Positions 6,109 to 32,568 of a stretch of DNA of 32,568 nt are shown here, in pieces. The stretch is from Spirochaetes bacterium ADurb.BinA120 (GTDB lineage Bacteria > Spirochaetota > UBA4802 > UBA5368), in assembly GCA_002069125.1 (NCBI GenBank), contig MVZN01000032.1, forward strand, positions 1 to 32,568, given 5' to 3'. The notes below the pieces were generated by a model. The model was given only the letters and a program-made list of their open reading frames with translations. It ran no database searches and was not told the DNA's origin. A program made the translations under genes and the position numbers. Positions within the stretch are counted from its first letter, which is position 1. Each line of letters begins with the position of its first letter.

Positions 6109-6136
6109 TTGATGTCGGTTCCGGTTGTGATATAAT
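6109..6136 (+). promoter_or_regulatory. Sigma70-type promoter of the GTPase-module operon
   Basis: TTGATG (6109-6114), a 16-base spacer and a perfect TATAAT (6131-6136). Transcription would start near 6143, giving a leader of about 55 bases to the ATG at 6199, which has GAAAGGG (6185-6191) at ideal spacing. It drives the winged-helix/BON/OmpA gene and probably the GTPase and phosphatase genes that follow in the same direction. Confidence 0.7.
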
Positions 6137-6198
6137 TTTTTGGATGTTGTCCGCTTACAGAGATGGGCTTTATTGCGTTACAGCGAAAGGGCTTGCGG

Positions 6199-7947
6199 AT
6201 GAGGAAAGAGATAGATATTAGGGCGCTCAAGCGGATCGACGAGCTTGACAACCCGTACTTACGCCACTTCGTGAGAAGGCACAACCTGGACGACAGGGAG
6301 GCCCTTGCGCTCGGCGTGCTCATGGAGCAGACCGATCACATGCGGCTTGCCATAAGGACCAGCTATTCCATGATCGCCCGCGATGTCGGCGTCTCCACCA
6401 GCGAGGCATACCGCCTTGTACAGGCCCTCCACCGCCGTCGGATACTCGAGTCGCGCACGGATGGCGAGCTGATCAGAATCGCCTTTTATCCCATCAAGGA
6501 GACGGTCGACGAGATCCGGCTGGCTTACAAAAACGCGCGCCGGCTCGATGTTGTTGAAGGAGATCTTCGGACCATTAAAGGCAGGGACTATCTGCCGCGT
6601 GCGGACCTGTTCGACGATATCTATCCCCTTATGGGCTCGCTCATCGCCAGGAAAATGTCCGAGGCGCTCCGCTCCCTGGCCCACTACATCGATAAAAGGC
6701 TCGAGGCCGCCACAAGCCTTCGCCTGTGGCGCTATCGCGTCCGCTCGCGTATAAGCGGCGTTCCGGCCGGCGAGCTCATGCTGCGGGACACTCTTCCATT
6801 CATCGTCGAGGAGCTCTTTATTATCGAAAAGAAGAGCGGTATTCTCATGGCGCACCATTCCCGAAAGGCCGAAGGCGAGGTGGACCGCGACCTTGTAAGC
6901 GGCATGCTGACCGCCATAAGGGATTTCGTAAAGACCTCGTTCAAAAAGAAGCGAGAAGACGAGGTGGACGAGATAGCGTACGGTGAAGCCCGTATCCTGA
7001 TACGCGCCGAGCCCTACTTCTACGCCGCGTTTGTAGTCACCGGTAATCCCGATATCGAGTTCAACCTCGAAATGGACCGGTTCGCCCTCGAGCTGCATCG
7101 CGCGAATCGGTCCCTTGTGCGTTCTTTCAACGGTGATATGGATTCGCTCGAACCCCTGCGCGCTCCGGTAAGGGGGTTCGTCGAGCGCTTCAGCACCCTT
7201 CCCTCCGAGGAACGCGAGGGCGGCGCTTCTCTCAGGAGCCTTAAACGCGCCGGAGCGGTCGTGGCGGTTCTTTTAATATGCCTCCTGGGGCTTGCGATTT
7301 ATCATTCATGGAACGACGCCCGGATTCGAAAGCTCACCATCGCAAGGCTTGCCGGGACCCTGCCGGTCCATATGTACGATGTCGAACTCAAGGTGGGCCG
7401 GGGCGTGGTTACGGCCACGGGAATGGCCTCGTCGGAGGACATAGTGCGGCGCCTGGGGGATGCGCTGGCCTCCACGCCCGGGGTAAAGGGGGTGGACAAC
7501 CGGGTCCTTGTGGTCGATATCGAACGGATAAGCCGGTTTCGCGGGGAGATGGAAACTATAAGGAAGCGCATGGACGCGGTATTGCTGGCCCAGACCAGGG
7601 AGGAGCTCGAAAAGATAGTTATACGCTTTCCAATTAACGTGGCCGAGCTGGGAAAGGAACAGGATTTTCTGGTCAAACGGATATATGAAATAATCAGGCA
7701 CCATCCGGCCGCGCATTTGGACGTGGTCGCCTTTGCGGACAAAACCGGGAGCTTCGAGATAAACAAGTCGCTGGCCGAACGAAGGGTGGCGGCGGTGCGC
7801 GCCGGGCTTATAGCCAGGGGAATCGAGCCCTCGAGGGTGCATCCGTTTCCCTTCGATCCCGCCCTGATAGAGTCGGATCCCCGAATGGCGGCGCATCTCG
7901 ATGAGCGGGGCATAATGATATTCGCCCGAATGGCTGAAGAGGAATAG
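6199..7947 (+). CDS. Membrane protein: winged helix, roadblock/longin-like, TM, BON and OmpA domains
   Basis: 582 residues in an unusual order. Residues about 35-100 look like a winged helix-turn-helix (SYSMIARDVGVSTSEAYRLV). About 198-315 resemble a roadblock/longin-type domain (IIEKKSGILMAHHS, then DRDLVSGMLTAIRDFV), a fold that binds small GTPases. One TM helix lies at 351-368 behind a basic flank, placing the N-terminal part in the cytoplasm. About 380-440 form a BON domain (VVTATGMASSEDIVRRL), and about 470-578 an OmpA-like C-terminal domain that would touch peptidoglycan. ATG 6199 is preferred for its Shine-Dalgarno; ATG 6163 is in frame but has a poor one. The Ras-like GTPase begins only 22 bases after the stop, so a functional pair is likely. 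The DNA-binding and GTPase-partner roles are inference; BON and OmpA calls are firmer. Confidence 0.75.
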   Translation: MRKEIDIRALKRIDELDNPYLRHFVRRHNLDDREALALGVLMEQTDHMRLAIRTSYSMIARDVGVSTSEAYRLVQALHRRRILESRTDGELIRIAFYPIKETVDEIRLAYKNARRLDVVEGDLRTIKGRDYLPRADLFDDIYPLMGSLIARKMSEALRSLAHYIDKRLEAATSLRLWRYRVRSRISGVPAGELMLRDTLPFIVEELFIIEKKSGILMAHHSRKAEGEVDRDLVSGMLTAIRDFVKTSFKKKREDEVDEIAYGEARILIRAEPYFYAAFVVTGNPDIEFNLEMDRFALELHRANRSLVRSFNGDMDSLEPLRAPVRGFVERFSTLPSEEREGGASLRSLKRAGAVVAVLLICLLGLAIYHSWNDARIRKLTIARLAGTLPVHMYDVELKVGRGVVTATGMASSEDIVRRLGDALASTPGVKGVDNRVLVVDIERISRFRGEMETIRKRMDAVLLAQTREELEKIVIRFPINVAELGKEQDFLVKRIYEIIRHHPAAHLDVVAFADKTGSFEINKSLAERRVAAVRAGLIARGIEPSRVHPFPFDPALIESDPRMAAHLDERGIMIFARMAEEE

Positions 7948-7969
7948 CCGTGTTCGAACGATTCAATCA

Positions 7970-8494
7970 ATGGCATGGAATGGTGGCCCCTTGCTGATAC
8001 AAAAAAAAATCTGCCTCCTGGGCGATTTTGCGGTCGGGAAAACGAGCCTTATACGGAGATTCGTGTATAATGAGTTCAGCGAAAGCTACCTCACCACCAT
8101 AGGGGTGCACATTACAAAAAAGGAGATACTCTTGGGCGGTGACAGGCTTGTGTTGATCATCTGGGACCTGGCAGGCAACGACGGCTTTCAAAAAACCGCC
8201 GCCTCCTATCTCGCGGGCGCGGCCGGGGCCATATTCGTGGGCGATCTCAGCCGCTCCGAAACCATGAGCGGCATTCCTTCACAGATGCGCATGTTCGAAG
8301 AGTCCAATCCCGGTTCGCCGGGTGTAATCGTTTTCAACAAGACCGATCTCCTGCCGGGCCCGGTGAACCCAATGCAAACATCACGCGAGGCCGGAATACC
8401 GGAGGGCGCGCCGGTATTTTTAACGAGCTGCAAGACGGGAGAGAACGTTGGGAGCGTGTTCGACTCCCTCGCCGGACTGATCCTGGGACGATAA
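7970..8494 (+). CDS. Ras/Rab-like small GTPase
   Basis: A single-domain GTP-binding protein of 174 residues, the size of eukaryotic Ras/Rab proteins. All G-motifs are visible: G1 GDFAVGKT (18-25), the switch-I threonine in YLTTIG (40-45), G3 DLAGN (66-70), G4 NKTD (123-126) and G5 TSCKTG (152-157). The residue after the G3 glycine, glutamine in Ras/Rab (DTAGQE), is Asn70 here, which suggests slow intrinsic hydrolysis and need of a partner. No lipid-anchor cysteine tail is present. The true start may be TTG at 7991, since homologues tend to begin just before QKKICLLGD; a run of nine A follows that point. It sits between the roadblock/OmpA protein and a PP2C phosphatase, implying a signalling switch. 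Confidence 0.88.
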   Translation: MAWNGGPLLIQKKICLLGDFAVGKTSLIRRFVYNEFSESYLTTIGVHITKKEILLGGDRLVLIIWDLAGNDGFQKTAASYLAGAAGAIFVGDLSRSETMSGIPSQMRMFEESNPGSPGVIVFNKTDLLPGPVNPMQTSREAGIPEGAPVFLTSCKTGENVGSVFDSLAGLILGR

Positions 8495-8545
8495 GATGAA
8501 TAAACCGGCCTCCATTTCAAAGCGCCGGCGCGCGAGTGTCCCATC

Positions 8546-9808
8546 ATGACTCTGCCGGATCCGGAAATCCTGCCGGGCCTCTGTGACCGTTACGGGATAC
8601 ATTTTATCGCTTTCGATGACAGCTTCGAACTACTTGGACCCGTTCCCGATCTGTCGAAGACGCTGGGAATCGATATCCCCGAGAGTGCGGGGCTTTTCGA
8701 AGTCTTTCCGGAACTGGTTGGCCGCGAGTCCGACCTGGAGAAAATACTCGACGGGACCGGTGAGCTGTCGATCACCCATATCCTCTCCGCGAATGGGGCG
8801 GCCTATTATGATCTCCTGGCGCTTCCACTCCCGAACAGGCCCCGATGCGCGCTTCTGGTGCTCCACGATGTGACCGGCGAACTCGAGGCCAGACGCCTTC
8901 TGCAACAGGCTGGACACGAGGTTTCGCTTCTCAGTGAAATGCTCCGGAGCAAGGACGACAACCTTAAGGCACTCAATGAGACTACGCTCCTCTATATCAA
9001 CAGGCTGCATGCCACAGAAGAATCACTGATGAAAAGCCGTGAGGAGTTGCGGCGAAGCAACGAACGGATGACCAGGGAGCTCCTGATGGCGGGAAAGGTG
9101 CAGCGCCAGCTTGTCGAATTCGATCCGCCCGGAGCGCCCTGGCTTCGCACGGCGCATACCTACCGCCCTCTCGAAGAGGTGGGCGGGGACTTTATGGCGC
9201 TCATTGAAATGGAAGACGGCGCCTTCGCCGTCTGTATAGGCGATGTAACGGGCCATGGAGTGGCCGCAGCGCTGTTCATCGCGCTGTTAAAATCAACCTT
9301 CAGGCAGGTCCTCCAGGATTACGGCGGCTCACCGGACGTGCTGCTCGAACGGCTCAATGACATGCTCATAGGAAATCTCAATGGCAATTTTGTCACGTGT
9401 ATATATGGGATACTTGCAAAGACGGAGCAGGGGGCGGAGTTCGTGTTCGCTTCCGGGGGACATCCGTCTCCGGTGGTGGTACGGGCCGGCGGATCGATCG
9501 ATTTTTTGCAGGCGGAAGGGACGATGCTGGGATTCAGGAGCCCTTTGAGGACCAGGGCCGTAACGGAGACACTGCTTCCCGGCGACAGGCTCTATCTTTA
9601 CACTGATGGCCTTCCCGAATCCGGCAATTCACAAGGCGGGATGATCGGATTCGACGAGGGCCTCGAGGAGATGTTCCAGTTTTCCAGGGCCGGTACTCTG
9701 GAGGAGACGCACGGGAGGATCATCGAATACTGCGACCGTTTTCGCGGCGAAGAGCCCTTGCATGACGATATAACCATCCTATCCTTCGAGATCGTCCGTA
9801 CTTCCTAG
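8546..9808 (+). CDS. PAS-like sensor with SpoIIE/PP2C protein phosphatase
   Basis: A cytoplasmic signalling protein of 420 residues. Residues 1-112 form a PAS-like sensor (FEVFPELVG at 51-59, LLVLHDVTGE near 103-112). About 113-185 are a coiled-coil linker, and 186-420 a PPM/SpoIIE serine/threonine phosphatase with the metal-binding aspartates in VGGDF (212-216) and GDVTGHG (232-238), then ASGGHPSP, YTDGLPES and HDDITIL. No membrane segment is present. It follows the GTPase by 51 bases, in which a 17-codon frame starting at 8496 overlaps this ATG by its stop (TCATGA), a possible coupling device. Likely substrates are anti-sigma-antagonist-type or other phosphoproteins; none lies nearby. Its sensor domain is duplicated in the convergent HD-GYP gene. 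Confidence 0.88.
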   Translation: MTLPDPEILPGLCDRYGIHFIAFDDSFELLGPVPDLSKTLGIDIPESAGLFEVFPELVGRESDLEKILDGTGELSITHILSANGAAYYDLLALPLPNRPRCALLVLHDVTGELEARRLLQQAGHEVSLLSEMLRSKDDNLKALNETTLLYINRLHATEESLMKSREELRRSNERMTRELLMAGKVQRQLVEFDPPGAPWLRTAHTYRPLEEVGGDFMALIEMEDGAFAVCIGDVTGHGVAAALFIALLKSTFRQVLQDYGGSPDVLLERLNDMLIGNLNGNFVTCIYGILAKTEQGAEFVFASGGHPSPVVVRAGGSIDFLQAEGTMLGFRSPLRTRAVTETLLPGDRLYLYTDGLPESGNSQGGMIGFDEGLEEMFQFSRAGTLEETHGRIIEYCDRFRGEEPLHDDITILSFEIVRTS

Positions 9809-10905
9809 GATTTCCATTTAAACCCCTTCTCCCTGAAAAGGCGGACGCATGTTTTCACCACGTCCGCGTCGTAGAGCAGCCCGGAGTTGGTTTCTATCTC
9901 GCTCAACGCGCTTTCTATGCTGGAGGAAAAACGGTATGGCCGGTAGGTTGCCATGGCCTCGACCACGTCCGCTACGGTAACGATCTTAGCTTCAAGCAGT
10001 ATCTCGTCCGCCTTCAGGCCGTCCGGGTATCCCGAGCCGTCGCATTTTTCGTGGTGCTGGAGGGTGATTGTAGCGACGGGCCAGGGGAACTCGATGTCCC
10101 TGAGAATCTCGAAGCCGACGCGCGAGTGCGTCTTGATGACGTTGAATTCGGCCTCGGTGAGGCTTAGTGGTTTGGTCAGGAATTCGCTCGGCACGTATAT
10201 CTTGCCGATGTCGTGCAGACGGCTGGCCACGCCGATTCCATCGATGATCTGTTCGGAAAGGCCGAGCTCCCGTCCGATGGCCTCGGCAAGCGTGCCCACG
10301 CGCTGCTGGTGTCCGACGGTATAGGGGTCCCGTTTTTCCATGGCGAACATGAGCGTATTTACGGTCTGGCTGAACAGCCGCTGCGAGAGTTCTATGCTCT
10401 CCTTTAGCTCGCGGGTACGGCTTTCAACCGCTTCCTCGAGCCCCCTGTTCAACTCGCGCAGCTCCTCCTGGCTTCTTGTAAGCTGGGCGTTTTTTTCGGA
10501 AAGGTGCTGCTGCAGCAGGTGTATCTCGTTTCGGCGCTGTTGGAGGGACTGGCGGATCAGGCACTCGCCTGTTACATCCTTTACCACCAGTGCCGCGGCG
10601 TCGGCCTCCCTTTCATCGTGGATAATGTATAGATCGAAAAAGACCTCCGAGGAGGGCGGACCGAAAAGGATCCGGTTAATACGCTTGATGGAGGTCTCGC
10701 GGCTGTTGCCGTCTATTATGGAGGTTATCTTCCTTTCGACTCCGACAAGCTCCGGGAAGACCTCGAATGCTTCTGCGGTACCGTGGTCGGCATCCAGGCC
10801 CAGAAATACCTGGAGCGAGGGCCCGTGGAAATGAATGGTGTAATCGCGGTCAATGCGCGCCTGGTGCAGGCCGAACCTGTACGCCAACAGCGAGTTGTCG
10901 ATCAT
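9805..10905 (-). CDS. PAS-like sensor with HD-GYP cyclic-di-GMP phosphodiesterase domain
   Basis: 366 residues from ATG 10905 (AAGGGG upstream); TTG 10908 would add one residue. Residues 1-113 are a PAS-like domain with FEVFPELVG at 48-56 and VVKDVTGE near 107-114, matching the sensor of the PP2C protein at 8546. A coiled coil (about 115-170) leads into an HD-GYP domain: HD at 231-232 in HDIGKI, then HHEKCDGSGYP at 284-294. HD-GYP enzymes cleave cyclic-di-GMP to pGpG or GMP; the metal-binding residues look intact, so activity is expected. The stop codon shares bases with the stop of the phosphatase gene (CCTAGG, 9804-9809), so no separate terminator fits between them. Confidence 0.9.
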   Translation of the reverse strand: MIDNSLLAYRFGLHQARIDRDYTIHFHGPSLQVFLGLDADHGTAEAFEVFPELVGVERKITSIIDGNSRETSIKRINRILFGPPSSEVFFDLYIIHDEREADAAALVVKDVTGECLIRQSLQQRRNEIHLLQQHLSEKNAQLTRSQEELRELNRGLEEAVESRTRELKESIELSQRLFSQTVNTLMFAMEKRDPYTVGHQQRVGTLAEAIGRELGLSEQIIDGIGVASRLHDIGKIYVPSEFLTKPLSLTEAEFNVIKTHSRVGFEILRDIEFPWPVATITLQHHEKCDGSGYPDGLKADEILLEAKIVTVADVVEAMATYRPYRFSSSIESALSEIETNSGLLYDADVVKTCVRLFREKGFKWKS

Positions 10906-11010
10906 CAATCAACCCCTTTATGGAAATCGTGGCCGGGCATAACCGCGCCCGATGAAAACATATTCAAAAGACCGCAAAATGGCAATAATAAATCGTTGAT
11001 GATAATTCGT

Positions 11011-16896: not shown

Positions 16897-18069
16897 TCAG
16901 GTCGTGGCGGCTGCCGCGGCCTTTTTCTTGCGCGACTGCATTATTCCGTAGGCGATCGCCCCGCCGGCTAGCGCAAGCAGGATGATGGCCAGTACGGGCC
17001 TGTAGTATATCCACGCGATCGCTATGGTGATAAGAGAGAGCGCGAAGGCTACGATGCCGGAAAAGAGTCCAAGGCCTATCTTTAGCAATCCCCCAACCGC
17101 CGGGACGACGTCGGCGACCGTAACCAGCGGCTTGAATACCATCATGAGCCCCATGTACATCATGACGAGCCCTACGAAGCGGACTATCCAGGTACGCATG
17201 ACGTTGGCGTCCTGCGCGCTCTGAATCATACCCGCTGCGTCAATGATACCCATTTCAGTCAGGAGCTGGCTGGTGCCCTCTTTGCCGCGATACGGCTGGA
17301 AGGTATCGCCGTTCTGTACCGCGATGACCGAGATCTCCTTTGGCGATTTTACGACTTTGAGGCTTATACGCACGTCGCCAACCTGCGGGCTCTGGGAATT
17401 GGCGCCCAGGAAGAGCCATTCGCCGGAGGGCTTGGCCTTTGCCCGAATATCGGGCGGAAGCTTGGCGATCTCGGCCGCGGTAAAGTTGACGGTCTCCGCC
17501 CCTCCTATACCGCTTATCTGTCCGGGTATGAGCCTGAATGCCCCAAGTACGACGCTTTGGGCCGAGATTCTCATGGCCTCATAAGGCATGGCGCCCGGGT
17601 TTTGGTGGCCCTGGGGCTGTTTGAAGATCGAGGAATCGACCGCGGACGATGACCAGCCAGTTTTATAATCGTAGGTGGTGACCGTCTCCTCTCCTCCGCC
17701 AAGTTTCTTCTGGGTTTTCTGGCTTTTGGATTCAATCCACTGGAACATCTCGACCGAACGGTCCAGGTGGATCGCGTTGGCGCTGTAATTGAATGCGCTG
17801 TCGGTTAACACCTCGTCGGTCTTCGCGGTACCGCTCATGTGTACCGGTTTAAGGTTGTTGGCCGGATCCACTTTTAGAGAATCTACGCTTATAACCTCAT
17901 TCCCCAGGCTGCTCAGGTCGCGATAGGTTTTAACGGCGCAACCCTCGTTCATAAAGAGTACCGGAAAGGCCGCGACGAAGAGGGCGAGGCCCACAAGCAC
18001 CCCCTTGATGGACTCCATGAGGCGCGCGCCCCATGATTTGGAACTGACTTCCGTAACCGAATCGGACAT
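16897..18069 (-). CDS. TMEM43/LUMA-family membrane protein
   Basis: 390 residues from ATG 18069, which has GGGAGGAGA just upstream; the longer frame to 18141 adds 24 residues without such a site. One TM helix near residue 20-40 (GVLVGLALFVAAFPVLFMNEG) is followed by a large extracytoplasmic region with the family's N-E-G, R-x-S/D-L and Y-x-x-x-W features, then three or four TM helices near the C-terminus and an Ala/Lys-rich tail. This is the layout of TMEM43 (LUMA), known in eukaryotes from the inner nuclear membrane and also found in bacteria, where its function is unknown. It has its own promoter and terminator, so it stands alone. Family call rests on remembered pattern and topology. Confidence 0.75.
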   Translation of the reverse strand: MSDSVTEVSSKSWGARLMESIKGVLVGLALFVAAFPVLFMNEGCAVKTYRDLSSLGNEVISVDSLKVDPANNLKPVHMSGTAKTDEVLTDSAFNYSANAIHLDRSVEMFQWIESKSQKTQKKLGGGEETVTTYDYKTGWSSSAVDSSIFKQPQGHQNPGAMPYEAMRISAQSVVLGAFRLIPGQISGIGGAETVNFTAAEIAKLPPDIRAKAKPSGEWLFLGANSQSPQVGDVRISLKVVKSPKEISVIAVQNGDTFQPYRGKEGTSQLLTEMGIIDAAGMIQSAQDANVMRTWIVRFVGLVMMYMGLMMVFKPLVTVADVVPAVGGLLKIGLGLFSGIVAFALSLITIAIAWIYYRPVLAIILLALAGGAIAYGIMQSRKKKAAAAATT

Positions 18070-18119
18070 CGTATCTCCTCCCTGATTTTGATTCTGTCGG
18101 AAACGGCCGACAAGGCGTG

Positions 18120-18148
18120 AGAGTAGTATGTTAAAAAACAAATGTCAA
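18120..18148 (-). promoter_or_regulatory. Sigma70-type promoter of the TMEM43-like gene
   Basis: Read on the minus strand, a perfect TTGACA (complement of 18143-18148), a 17-base spacer and TACTCT (complement of 18120-18125). The start would be near 18113, about 44 bases before the ATG. Confidence 0.5.
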
Positions 18149-28057: not shown

Positions 28058-29524
28058 TCAATACATGAGCATGGGAAGCCCTATGACCCCCAGGTCGATT
28101 ATGAAGTGACAGATAACGCATGGCAGTACGCTCCGCGTACGTTCGAAAACCATGCCGAGCACCGCGCCATAGATGAAGCTGAGTACGAAGAACAGCGGCC
28201 CGCCCACGGCAAGATGGATGAGGGCGTAAAGGGCCGCCTGCGAGGCAAGAGCGGCGGCCAGGCCCAGGCCCGAGGCTTGCAGTAGCCGAAAGAGCGCGAG
28301 CCGGAAGAAGACCTCTTCGGCGAGTGAGTTGAGGAGGGAGATGGCTATTACGGGAGGCCAGTATTCCGCTCCGCGCAGGGAGTATCTGGCGGCGCCCAGA
28401 AGTATGACGGCGTAGGCAAGGCTGCCGAATAGGGCGAGACCGAACCATGGATTGAAGAGCCGCCGAACTTCGAGTCTAAAAGAGGGGATGAACGGTAATC
28501 CGGCCTTTACCAGGAATAAAAGCCCGGCCATCTCCAGAAGGAAAACCGGCAGATAGGCGGGAATTCTCCCCCATGCCTCGGAAACGCTTTCCACCGGGAA
28601 CAGGGGCCAGGTGACGAGCCCCGTCCTTATAAGGAGCGCGATGAGGGCGAAGAAGGCGAGAAAAAGGGCGGAAAGCGCGCCCGCCGCGACGCGCGCGCCG
28701 AAGATGCGCCTTGCGTCCCCGGACAATTCATTGTAGCGGTTCTTAAGCGCGGTCGCGGCGAGTATGAGCGAGCCAATCGCCACGAAGGCGATCATTACTA
28801 TCTGCGCCTGGGTGAGCCCGAGCGCCGCGATCGATTCGGTCCGGATGAATTCGATTATAAAACGTGCGTCGCCGTAGAGGATCAGATAGAGCGCCGTAAT
28901 CTTCCCCCCCTCGCGCATGCGCTCTGTCGATCCCGGAGCGTATATGCGTTCGTGCATCTTTCTGAGCGTGAAAAAGATCGCGAGGTTATAGGCGATATCG
29001 TAAAGAGGCACAGGATTATAGAACTCGACGCTTAAGCCGAAAAAGTTAAGTGCGATCGGGCCGCCCCAGCAGCATCCAACGAGAAGGCAGGCGACCCTGC
29101 CGATCGCGTTGGAAAGAGGAATGTAGAGGAAGAAGGTGTCCGAAATGTCCCAGAAGCGGAAACGCATGGCGAAAAGTAGCGCGCTGATAAGCACGGTCGG
29201 AAGCATCAGGCTCGCGTGAAACGTGTGGTAGCTTTGCGAGCTTACGATGTCAGCCAGAAGCGAGTAGCTCCAGAGCTGGCTGGGATGATAGAAGATGTTG
29301 GCCGCCCGGGAGCTTATAAACCCCGCAGGCAGGATGAATATCGCTATTATCAGGAAAAAACGGCGCACCCTGGCCCTGTCATAGTTCAGCGCGAGGATTT
29401 TGCGGTAGACCAAAAGGAGCCCTGTTGCGACCGCCAGAACGACGATGGTATTGTAAATGGAATTGGTGATCGTGACGAACAGCCGGGGATCGACATCGTA
29501 TTTAAGCAGCAAATAGGAGATCAT
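28058..29524 (-). CDS. Lgt-like/CPBP intramembrane protease fusion
   Basis: 488 residues, multi-pass. The N-terminal half (about 1-270) resembles prolipoprotein diacylglyceryl transferase: YHTFHASLM near 108-116 and NAIGRVACLLVGCCWGGP (about 140-157), a divergent form of the Lgt signature, then RFIIEFIRTE. The C-terminal half carries the CPBP/CAAX-protease (Abi) signature in order: EEVFFR (about 402-407), ALIHLA (His near 438) and HFIIDL (His near 478). The catalytic residues of both families are recognisable, but the Lgt part is diverged and the Lgt activity is uncertain. It starts 33 bases after the SpeE-like gene on the same strand, so they are probably co-transcribed. No normal separate lgt lies in the window. 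Confidence 0.8.
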   Translation of the reverse strand: MISYLLLKYDVDPRLFVTITNSIYNTIVVLAVATGLLLVYRKILALNYDRARVRRFFLIIAIFILPAGFISSRAANIFYHPSQLWSYSLLADIVSSQSYHTFHASLMLPTVLISALLFAMRFRFWDISDTFFLYIPLSNAIGRVACLLVGCCWGGPIALNFFGLSVEFYNPVPLYDIAYNLAIFFTLRKMHERIYAPGSTERMREGGKITALYLILYGDARFIIEFIRTESIAALGLTQAQIVMIAFVAIGSLILAATALKNRYNELSGDARRIFGARVAAGALSALFLAFFALIALLIRTGLVTWPLFPVESVSEAWGRIPAYLPVFLLEMAGLLFLVKAGLPFIPSFRLEVRRLFNPWFGLALFGSLAYAVILLGAARYSLRGAEYWPPVIAISLLNSLAEEVFFRLALFRLLQASGLGLAAALASQAALYALIHLAVGGPLFFVLSFIYGAVLGMVFERTRSVLPCVICHFIIDLGVIGLPMLMY

Positions 29525-29557: not shown

Positions 29558-32500
29558 TCAATCGAGTCGAGCGAGGCCCTGCCGCGCGCCCATGTGTCCC
29601 GGATCGAGTCTGAGCGCCCGGCGGTATTGCGTAAGGGCTAAGTAGCGGTCGCCCTCCGCCTCCGCGATCAGACCGAGCTCGAAATGTATCTCGCCGTCGA
29701 AGGGGGTAAGCTCTTCGGCGCGGCTGAAGCTTCTTCTGGCTTCCGCTATTCGGTACTGGAATTTACGGGTCATCCCGAGCGCGTAATGAAGCTCCGCCGC
29801 GTCCGGGTTCGTATCGATACCGGTGGAGAACTCCCGGGCCGCTGCCTCCAGGTCGCCCTTTCTAAGATATATCCATCCGAGATGGTAATGAGCCTCGAAC
29901 GATGCTCCTGTTTCGATTGCCTTTTTGAGGTTTCTTGCGGCCTCGTCGAACCTTCCAGTTTTAAGTAAGGCCTCGCCCATAAGGGTTAGGGCCTCTCCCG
30001 AGCGGGGCCGGATGGCGAGCGCTTCGCGAAGCGCGACGATCATCCGAAGGTAATCGCCTTCACGGCGAAGTTCCCGCGACAGAGAGAGGAAATCGTCGAA
30101 GCTTTTAGGCTCTCCGGCGGGTTTGGCGGCCGGGGGCGCCATGGATATGCCGTCGGCGTGCGTCGATATCCCGGGGTAATCCGGCACGATGGCCAGGGCC
30201 CTGCGAATCTCGACGGCATGCGCCGGGTCCCCCCGGCTGTTGAGGAGCATCGCGGAGACGACATGCCCGGTCGCCATGCTCATTCGTTCAATTTCCGCGG
30301 CGAGCCGGTCGCGCCCTCGCCCATGTATCAGCAGGGATGAGGCCGGCGTGCGGTACAGCCGTATGAGCGAGAGAGCGTTGGAAAGGTCGTGCATGGTCGT
30401 TCTCGACATGGCGAATTCGAGATAAGGGTCGTTTTCCGTATGCAGCCTGCCGCACTCTTCGAGGTCGTCGATGGAGGCCTGGTCGAACTTGAAGATGTCG
30501 AGAAAGGCGGCGGGCGAGCCGTATCCTATCTCCGTGAGATCCCCGCGCGCGTACCGATCGAAGCGCGCCGAAAATACGTCGGGTTCGACGATAAAAGGGG
30601 AGTCCGAGCCCGCGATCAGCGCGTGCTGGTTGTCGTGGCTGGTGGCGAACCAGAAGCTGACGTATGGGAATTCCGCGCGGAACGTCTTTAAAAGCGAAAC
30701 GAGGCTCGAGACGTCCATGTCCACCGGCATCCACGAGGTCATAATGCCGCCGGGCCTCAGGCGGCTTTTAGCGGTCCGGAAGTACTCCCGCGTATATAGC
30801 CCGGAGTTGCCCGCGTAGAAGGGCCATATCGAATCGTTCATGATGATGTCGTAGCGCTCGGAGCTAAGCCGGAGGTAGTTGGCCCCGTCCATTATTATCG
30901 GACGAAACCTGGGATTGCGGACCACGCCGCCGTTGATGTCGCGAAAGAACCGGTCGGAGGTCTCGATGACCGAGTCGCTTATCTCGACCACGTCGAGCCT
31001 TTCAATATCGTATGACGTGACAATGCGGGAGGTCTCGCCGCTGCCGAAACCGACCTGGCAAACGAGCCGGGGCCCCGGGTGCAGGAGCATGGGGATATGC
31101 GCCTGCAGCTTCTGCGTGGTGCGCAGGGTGTACGCGGTGCCTGCGACATTGATGGAGCCCGTGGAAATGACTCGATGGCCGCTTGCGAAGTGGTGCACCG
31201 TGGTGATGCCCTCTATCCCCTCGTGGGCGTAATCGATCACCGAGCTCGGATCGTGCGCCGCCTCGCCTTTGTTATAGTAACGAAAGAGATGGTCGCCGGG
31301 CAGGATGAGCATTGCGGAGAGCATAACCGGCCAGGGCGCGAGCTTGCGGACAAAACGGCCGGCCCGGGCGGTGGGCTTCTCCGAGGGCATCCTTTCGGCC
31401 AGGACCAGCGCCGCGGTGGCGGCGCAGGAGCTTATAAGCACCATGATGAGCATGGATACCTGCGTGCCGGCGAGCGTTATTAGGAGAAAACCGGTCGCGA
31501 CGCAACCGACTATCGATCCGGCGGTGCTCGCCGCGTAGAGGGCGCCGAGCGATTCGCCGAGGCGCGATATTTGCCGCGTGAAGACGGCCGCCGCAGTGGG
31601 GAAGGCCATGCCGACAAGAAAGGTGGGAAGCGCCATCACCGCCGCCGAGGGCAGCAGAGCGGCCCTTACAATATTGCCGGCCCAGGTAGTCGCGGTTGAA
31701 CCGGCGTCGGCCGGCATTCCGGCCAGCAGACCGAAGGCCGGAAGCGACAGGAATATCGATGCCGCCACCCCCCACTGCAAAAGGCCCCAGAGCCTTAGAT
31801 GATTTCGAATGACGAGGCGGCGGTCGAAGAGCGTAAAGCTCAGGCTTCCAAGTCCGATCCCAAGCAGAAAGGTGGTGAGCATGGTGGAAAAGGCGTAGAC
31901 GGTAGTTTTCAGCATGAAAACGAGCAGGCGTGTCCAGAGAATCTCGCACGAGAGCGATACGAAGCCGGCGGTAGCGGCGAGAAAGAGGAATATCCGCGCG
32001 TGTGAGTCGGAAATGGCGGATGATGGTTTCGCGGTCCGCGCGCTCTCCGCCGCCTCGGCCGGCTTTTCGTCCGAAATGAGCCTCGCGGCGAGGGCCACCG
32101 AGAGCGCTATGATGAGATTGACGGCCGCCGCGATAAAAACCGTCTCTCTTACGCCGAAGGATTTTATGAGATAAAACCCGGCCGCAAGGCAGCCGGCGGC
32201 GGCCCCCAGCGTATTTATTCCGTACAGAAGTCCGGTCCCTCTGCCCACCTCTCCCGGACGGCGCACGAAGAAGCGGGCGATTACCGGAAGCGTTCCGCCC
32301 ATTAGAACAGTGGGGATGGCCACCAGCACGAAGGAGAGGACGAAGCGGGCCGCGGTGAGGAGCGTATCCGAGAATCCCATCATGCCGTAAAGGAAGCGAT
32401 AAACCGGATCGATCAGGGGGACGGCGAGGGTGATGAGCACCGCGAACAGGGCGATACCCGCCTCGAGGGACGCGTATACCGCGAGTATTCCTCTCTTCGT

Positions 32501-32568
32501 ATCTATGAGCCCGCCGAAGAGCCGGCCGCCCAGCGCGAGCCCCGCCATGAAGGCCGACAGTACGGCGG
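29558..32568 (-). CDS. Spermidine synthase-like membrane protein with TPR tail (5' end outside window)
   Basis: The frame stays open to the right edge, coding AVLSAFMAGLALGGRLFGG, so the true start lies beyond it; ATG 32548 is internal. At least 1,003 residues are visible. The first about 430 hold around a dozen TM helices like those of fused spermidine-synthase/MFS-type proteins. Then comes a SpeE-like Rossmann domain with GFGSGET (near residue 506 of the visible part) and VEIS, followed by MDGANYL and MNDS. The polyamine residues are not all typical, so transferase specificity is uncertain. The C-terminal about 210 residues form around five TPR repeats (for example AHYHLGWIYLRKGDLEAAAREF). 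Membrane-anchored SpeE-like proteins are widespread but poorly characterised. It precedes the Lgt/CPBP gene by 33 bases. Confidence 0.88.
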   Translation of the reverse strand, partial: AVLSAFMAGLALGGRLFGGLIDTKRGILAVYASLEAGIALFAVLITLAVPLIDPVYRFLYGMMGFSDTLLTAARFVLSFVLVAIPTVLMGGTLPVIARFFVRRPGEVGRGTGLLYGINTLGAAAGCLAAGFYLIKSFGVRETVFIAAAVNLIIALSVALAARLISDEKPAEAAESARTAKPSSAISDSHARIFLFLAATAGFVSLSCEILWTRLLVFMLKTTVYAFSTMLTTFLLGIGLGSLSFTLFDRRLVIRNHLRLWGLLQWGVAASIFLSLPAFGLLAGMPADAGSTATTWAGNIVRAALLPSAAVMALPTFLVGMAFPTAAAVFTRQISRLGESLGALYAASTAGSIVGCVATGFLLITLAGTQVSMLIMVLISSCAATAALVLAERMPSEKPTARAGRFVRKLAPWPVMLSAMLILPGDHLFRYYNKGEAAHDPSSVIDYAHEGIEGITTVHHFASGHRVISTGSINVAGTAYTLRTTQKLQAHIPMLLHPGPRLVCQVGFGSGETSRIVTSYDIERLDVVEISDSVIETSDRFFRDINGGVVRNPRFRPIIMDGANYLRLSSERYDIIMNDSIWPFYAGNSGLYTREYFRTAKSRLRPGGIMTSWMPVDMDVSSLVSLLKTFRAEFPYVSFWFATSHDNQHALIAGSDSPFIVEPDVFSARFDRYARGDLTEIGYGSPAAFLDIFKFDQASIDDLEECGRLHTENDPYLEFAMSRTTMHDLSNALSLIRLYRTPASSLLIHGRGRDRLAAEIERMSMATGHVVSAMLLNSRGDPAHAVEIRRALAIVPDYPGISTHADGISMAPPAAKPAGEPKSFDDFLSLSRELRREGDYLRMIVALREALAIRPRSGEALTLMGEALLKTGRFDEAARNLKKAIETGASFEAHYHLGWIYLRKGDLEAAAREFSTGIDTNPDAAELHYALGMTRKFQYRIAEARRSFSRAEELTPFDGEIHFELGLIAEAEGDRYLALTQYRRALRLDPGHMGARQGLARLD

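Follow-up and report, generated by a model that had tools for sequence, protein, structure and literature searches.

The window analysed here is positions 1-32,568 of contig MVZN01000032.1 from Spirochaetes bacterium ADurb.BinA120, a Spirochaetota genome of 216 contigs that is 95.8% complete. Its subject is a cluster of four genes, A to D, that encodes a membrane protein, a small GTPase and two enzymes with a common N-terminal domain. Genes A, B and C are intact, lie on the forward strand and span positions 6199-9808 in the open reading frame (ORF) listing, as stated by an earlier interpretation made from the letters of the DNA (the sequence-only reading). The fourth gene, D (HD-GYP), was missed there; it is convergent with C and part of the module, and the two stand tail to tail with stop codons that overlap at 9805-9808. 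Of the single promoter that had been proposed for the operon, what stands is a promoter-like site with an extended -10 element, identified as a consensus match alone. Coordinates are collected in Table 1.

Table 1. Features of the A-D locus, with positions in the window and the basis of each assignment
Feature	Position	Strand	Basis
Promoter-like site TTGATG-N16-TATAAT, extended -10 TG	6109..6136	+	Consensus scan 10/12; upstream of A
Gene A, membrane protein, 582 aa: winged helix-turn-helix (wHTH), helical linker, longin-like, transmembrane, BON and OmpA parts	6199..7947	+	ORF, Pfam, alignment with relatives
Winged-helix-like segment, A residues ~40-100	6316..6498	+	HTH_IclR at residues 56-85, Pfam 3.7e-4, just under cut-off
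Longin-like domain (predicted), A residues 199-336	6793..7206	+	AlphaFold2 model, VIA-align and Foldseek matches
Single transmembrane helix, A residues 351-369, preceded by R/K residues	7249..7305	+	Hydropathy
BON domain (extracytoplasmic), A residues 372-439	7312..7515	+	PF04972, 2.1e-5, 25.1 bits against a cut-off of 27
OmpA peptidoglycan-binding domain, A residues 477-548	7627..7842	+	PF00691, 8.3e-7, above cut-off
Gene B, small Rab-like (Rup) GTPase, 167 aa from TTG	7991..8494	+	Pfam Ras, relatives' start, motif counts
Gene C, PAS-like N-terminal domain, Gln121, coiled coil and SpoIIE (PPM/PP2C-type) phosphatase	8546..9808	+	Pfam, invariant Gln, metal motifs
Gene D, N-terminal domain as in C, coiled coil and HD-GYP cyclic di-GMP (c-di-GMP) phosphodiesterase	9805..10908	-	Pfam HD_5, motif, three close relatives (L021-L023)

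Proteins encoded at the locus

By computation, gene A encodes an inner-membrane protein that crosses the membrane once, its wall-binding domains lying outside and the longin-like domain inside. Its start at 6199 agrees with that of relatives in the alignment, and an alternative start lies at 6163. The BON and OmpA domains named in the sequence-only reading were both recovered behind one transmembrane helix, OmpA above the Pfam cut-off and BON below it. Across 38 aligned A members the outer part is variable, and where recognised it is wall-related (OmpA in 21/38, SH3_3, a bacterial SH3 domain, in 7/38); BON was matched in four of the 38. Another OmpA-containing gene of the genome was rejected as a homologue of A, the resemblance being confined to the OmpA part.

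The winged-helix-like segment raises the alternative that A acts chiefly as a transcription factor tied to the membrane, its wHTH binding DNA under control of the GTPase. The region of the segment is conserved across relatives, although only those of the same order. However, the HTH match is weak, the window's A is the only one of the 38 aligned members to give it, and the segment is missing from a distant Spirochaetota family. Because it is missing there and the match is single, the wHTH is not the core function, and we regard a role of this kind as improbable.

Gene B matches the Ras family (PF00071, 3.5e-25), in agreement with the Ras/Rab-sized GTPase that had been read from the sequence. 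Relatives begin at the codon corresponding to the TTG at 7991; an upstream ATG is present at 7970, and automatic gene calling may pick the longer version. The G1 (GDFAVGKTS), G3 (WDLAGND) and G4 (NKTD) motifs were all found. The G3 aspartate is kept, with WD in 56/56 relatives that have letters at this position, and a catalytic glutamine at G3 occurs in 0/56. When the B profile was compared with the PDB, the best 60 relatives were all Rab-type. By computation, B is Rab-like and has no catalytic glutamine of its own, so that help with hydrolysis must come from elsewhere. It is the only small Ras-type GTPase in the genome, the other Ras-profile matches lying in long frames (856 and 620 aa), and no match to Robl_LC7 (PF03259) was found there.

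The enzymatic ends of C and D were assigned by Pfam: SpoIIE for C (6.1e-41), with metal-site motifs, and HD_5 for D (1.5e-30), with the HD-GYP motif HHEKCDGSGYP. The N-terminal domain common to both recurs in 53 aligned proteins (alignment A4), and one residue, Gln121 of C, where the coiled coil begins, is invariant across all 53 (56/56 letters in another count). A PAS_4/PAS profile matched 21/39 homologous N-terminal domains. For the PAS-SpoIIE phosphatase previously proposed, the SpoIIE part thus stands as such and the PAS part by way of homologues. By computation, C and D each carry the shared PAS-like domain followed by the invariant glutamine. The idea that the phosphatase is the sole output had to be given up, because the gene adjoining C encodes an HD-GYP phosphodiesterase that carries this N-terminal domain as well. 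Families counted among these aligned proteins include histidine-kinase ATPase domains (20), class III cyclases (11), HD-GYP-type HD domains (10), SpoIIE (7), GGDEF (3), EAL (1) and a sigma-54 activator (1). SpoIIE and HD-GYP together flank the GTPase at three further Spirochaetota loci (L031, L112, L113).

The middle domain of A

The middle domain of A (A-mid) was modelled with AlphaFold2, the one structure-prediction method used, from 70 diverse homologous sequences aligned over A residues 118-345. The mean predicted local distance difference test (pLDDT) score was 81.8, with values of at least 90 across much of the core. An earlier model, built on 10 sequences, reached a pLDDT of only 66.4 but already gave longin matches. 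The predicted elements follow the order beta-beta-alpha-beta-beta-beta-alpha-alpha.

When the model was compared with solved structures by VIA-align, 50/50 listed rows were longin-, roadblock- or adaptor-type chains. The best solved match was TRAPP (2j3t; Z 13.6 over 128 residues), and other longins included Vamp7 (Z 12.8), Sec22b (12.6), Fuzzy (12.3) and Ccz1 (12.1, at 16% identity). Among roadblock proteins, Asgard Roadblock3 reached Z 11.1 and MglB Z 10.7 over 103 residues. Foldseek agreed, with all matches listed coming from longin/roadblock assemblies. Longins have been described as carrying an extra C-terminal helix instead of the N-terminal helix of roadblocks (PMC10933270), and both the five-stranded sheet and the extra C-terminal helix are present in the predicted model. 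The longin matches cover model residues 82-219, corresponding to A residues 199-336 with the second C-terminal helix included, whereas the roadblock matches end ~30 residues earlier. Roadblock (PF03259) was rejected as the better name for A-mid on these grounds: despite the kinship of the two folds, scores are higher with longins, whose matches take in the additional helix. The roadblock/longin-like region that had been placed at residues 198-315 coincides with this predicted longin fold, in which longins rank ahead of the roadblock protein MglB. The model points to A-mid being a longin-type domain.

Co-occurrence of A and B across phyla

Three close relatives (L021-L023) have all four genes side by side in the arrangement seen here. 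Other families within the order have A, B and an output protein with the common N-terminal domain, in varied gene order. The source genome's own family provides a further relative, Spirochaetia bacterium UBA5368 (G195/L038). A-mid was searched for in 84,980 species genomes; the scan, not exhaustive because a single peptide pattern was used, returned 68 loci in taxa that include Spirochaetota, Chloroflexi, KSB1, Cyanobacteria, Bacteroidales, Helicobacteraceae, Gammaproteobacteria, Acidobacteria, Verrucomicrobia, Planctomycetes and Euryarchaeota. For the 66 loci considered without the archaeal set, the fetched stretch contains a GTPase in 55, and 42 of these also contain a protein with the common N-terminal domain.

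Whole-genome searches gave a consistent picture in three phyla. A-mid and B occur in exactly the same 17/247 genomes of Spirochaetota and in the same 13/296 genomes of Bacteroidota, one of which has two of each; among 201 Chloroflexota genomes, both are present in 8 and B without A-mid in 1. Hypergeometric values of 1e-26 (Spirochaetota), 6e-23 (Bacteroidota) and 2e-13 (Chloroflexota) were calculated without regard to shared ancestry and adjacency. The gene set of A, B and output, for which conservation in relatives had been proposed as a check, is thus kept well beyond close relatives. The alternative is a coincidental neighbourhood, with unrelated envelope, GTPase and phosphatase genes adjacent by chance. 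No point in support of such an explanation was found, and it is already contradicted by the co-occurrence in three phyla, the conserved neighbourhood and the N-terminal domain common to the outputs. Because A, B and these outputs stand together in several phyla, chance is a most implausible account.

Archaeal loci of Marine Group III and other Euryarchaeota (L097-L103) place the longin-like core (A residues ~200-317) near the C-terminus of proteins that reach ~2,400 aa. In one of these (L099), it is preceded by beta-helix, laminin-G and weak PKD and AAA/STAND matches.

Relation to Group 1 Rup systems and a proposed switch

Group 1 Rup GTPases were defined by Wuichet & Sogaard-Andersen in 2014 as Rab-like proteins without the G3 glutamine, very similar to eukaryotic Rab/Ras (PMC4316618). 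Their genes neighbour those for a coiled-coil protein, for a protein with a conserved unknown domain, often with a transmembrane helix and OmpA, and for an output protein with an invariant glutamine in its N-terminal region, the outputs typically being diguanylate cyclases/phosphodiesterases or histidine kinases (PMC4316618). A membrane signalling system was proposed as a prediction, none having been characterised at the time, and the text mentions neither Spirochaetota nor SpoIIE (PMC4316618). Our literature search, made largely without subscription journals, found no paper on a characterised Rup system.

The window shares most of these features. B is small (<240 aa) and has intact G motifs, including the G3 aspartate, without the G3 glutamine. 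A combines a conserved domain with a transmembrane helix and OmpA and was matched by description to the 2014 'Unc' domain, and A-mid-type domains were found in the phyla listed for Group 1. Both outputs carry the invariant Gln121 in their N-terminal region, the 2014 glutamine again being matched by description. Coupling to MglB is lacking, with no Robl_LC7 match in the genome. With these Group 1 features present but the coiled-coil gene absent, we file the locus as a Spirochaetota variant, and the circuit, previously regarded as uncommon, has a precedent in the systems proposed in 2014 (PMC4316618).

The window differs from the 2014 description in several respects. Its outputs are SpoIIE and HD-GYP, the latter another class of c-di-GMP phosphodiesterase, and this pairing appears to be new; outputs of relatives include histidine kinase, cyclase, GGDEF and EAL types. 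The window's A has a wHTH and a BON domain in addition. At 16 loci outside Spirochaetota, from Bacteroidota, cyanobacteria, acidobacteria and further groups, a coiled-coil motif gene lies directly upstream of A; among Spirochaetota loci the count is 0. Because this gene was listed as conserved in 2014, its absence makes the locus a variant rather than a canonical member. The wHTH-fused sensor and the missing coiled-coil gene are apparently new relative to the 2014 system, as is, on the strength of the model, the probable longin identity of the 'unknown' domain of Group 1 Rup partners. Class III adenylate/guanylate cyclase ends, seen in 11/53 A4 proteins and at a further locus (L110, 5458-6468), are absent from the 2014 description (PMC4316618). 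Three cyanobacterial loci from Scytonema and Rhizonema (L083, L088, L093) keep the coiled-coil gene and the A homologue with no adjacent GTPase; the L083 genome has a Rup-type GTPase elsewhere (G249:C379).

We consider it probable that the locus is such a variant and works as a switch of the following kind. A would sense the state of the peptidoglycan or envelope through OmpA and BON, and the signal would pass via the transmembrane helix to the longin domain, which, probably as a dimer, would bind B and set its nucleotide state as exchange factor or platform. GTP-loaded B would then dock on C and D at their PAS-like domain, changing c-di-GMP breakdown and the activity of the SpoIIE phosphatase, whose substrate would be an anti-sigma-antagonist or a similar phosphoprotein. 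The invariant Gln121 of the outputs may complete the active site of B and so end the signal, a trans-acting role that the 2014 authors suggested for the output glutamine (PMC4316618). Both the binding of B by A and the direction from envelope to GTPase to phosphatase are what we infer from these parts.

Several observations weigh against this reading. The coiled-coil gene is absent. Comparison of the A-mid profile with the PDB gave no longin at E-values up to 10, Pfam gave one weak match (Intu_longin_1, 0.0032) among 70 A-mid members, and the window's own A-mid had no Pfam match; as sequence comparison alone shows no relation of A-mid to longins, the longin claim rests on predicted structure. 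The N-terminal domain of the window's own outputs matches no Pfam family, and hence no PAS. The co-occurrence counts ignore shared ancestry, and the A-mid and B genes are adjacent in many genomes; since the two lie on different contigs in seven genomes (G001, G027, G067, G467, G488, G585 and G398), adjacency is not the whole explanation. The literature found holds no binding, exchange or hydrolysis data.

The action of the longin domain on B could also be the reverse of loading. As a GTPase-activating platform similar to MglB, it would switch B off at the envelope, and envelope contact would repress the outputs. The A-mid fold is also near that of MglB, the first Foldseek matches include GATOR1-RAG, in which longin/roadblock proteins act as GTPase-activating proteins, and B would need such help, having no glutamine of its own. 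However, exchange-factor longins (TRAPP, Ccz1, Fuzzy) are among the closest matches of A-mid, and the invariant glutamine proposed as the trans-acting residue sits in the outputs (PMC4316618). We therefore hold this alternative to be rather unlikely; because of the resemblance to TRAPP, Ccz1 and Fuzzy, a role of A-mid as exchange factor or platform is favoured. It is about equally doubtful that A is a scaffold and not a switch, its longin domain recruiting B and the outputs to wall-anchored A so that control would bear on their localisation, at a pole or septum for instance. Roadblock/longin dimers are often platforms (PMC10933270), and interchangeable outputs are as expected of a localisation hub; nothing specific was found against it, and sequence cannot separate scaffolding from exchange-factor action.

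Other GTPase systems resemble the proposed switch in part. In the MglA/MglB polarity switch of Myxococcus, too, a small Ras-like GTPase has a partner whose fold, roadblock, is related to longin, but B has the G3 aspartate that MglA lacks, and A-mid fits longins better and is fused to a membrane protein. Eukaryotic regulators such as Mon1-Ccz1, Fuzzy-Inturned and TRAPP pair a longin fold with a Rab-type GTPase, whereas A is a single membrane-anchored bacterial protein with wall-binding domains and no detectable sequence relation to them. In actinobacterial conservons (CvnA-D) an operon-encoded GTPase switch is also tied to a membrane signalling protein; unlike this locus, they use an MglA-type GTPase, the MglB-type roadblock protein CvnB and the histidine kinase CvnA (PMC4316618, PMC13343842).

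We tentatively propose, while thinking it somewhat doubtful, that Group 1 Rup with a wall-anchored longin is a bacterial counterpart of the eukaryotic Rab-longin pair, parallel to MglA-roadblock, and that in the interchangeable effectors the PAS-like domain together with its glutamine doubles as effector and GTPase-activating element. If true, longin-Rab pairing would be present outside eukaryotes and Asgard archaea. The predicted longin identity would bear on the origin of this pairing, longins having been derived from MglB-like roadblocks in published work (PMC3521125), and would make the 'domain of unknown function' of the Group 1 Rup partner a regulator that can be tested. A further suggestion is a general bacterial module in which cell-wall state, via one GTPase, could reach kinases, cyclases, c-di-GMP enzymes and phosphatases.

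Elsewhere in the window, three ORFs on the reverse strand were noted. One at 16900-18141 encodes a bacterial TMEM43-family protein (PF07787, 2.5e-74), and one at 28061-29524 fuses prolipoprotein diacylglyceryl transferase (LGT) to a CAAX-protease-like (Rce1) domain. The third, at 29561-32548, comprises 996 aa with MFS-like, spermidine-synthase and TPR regions.

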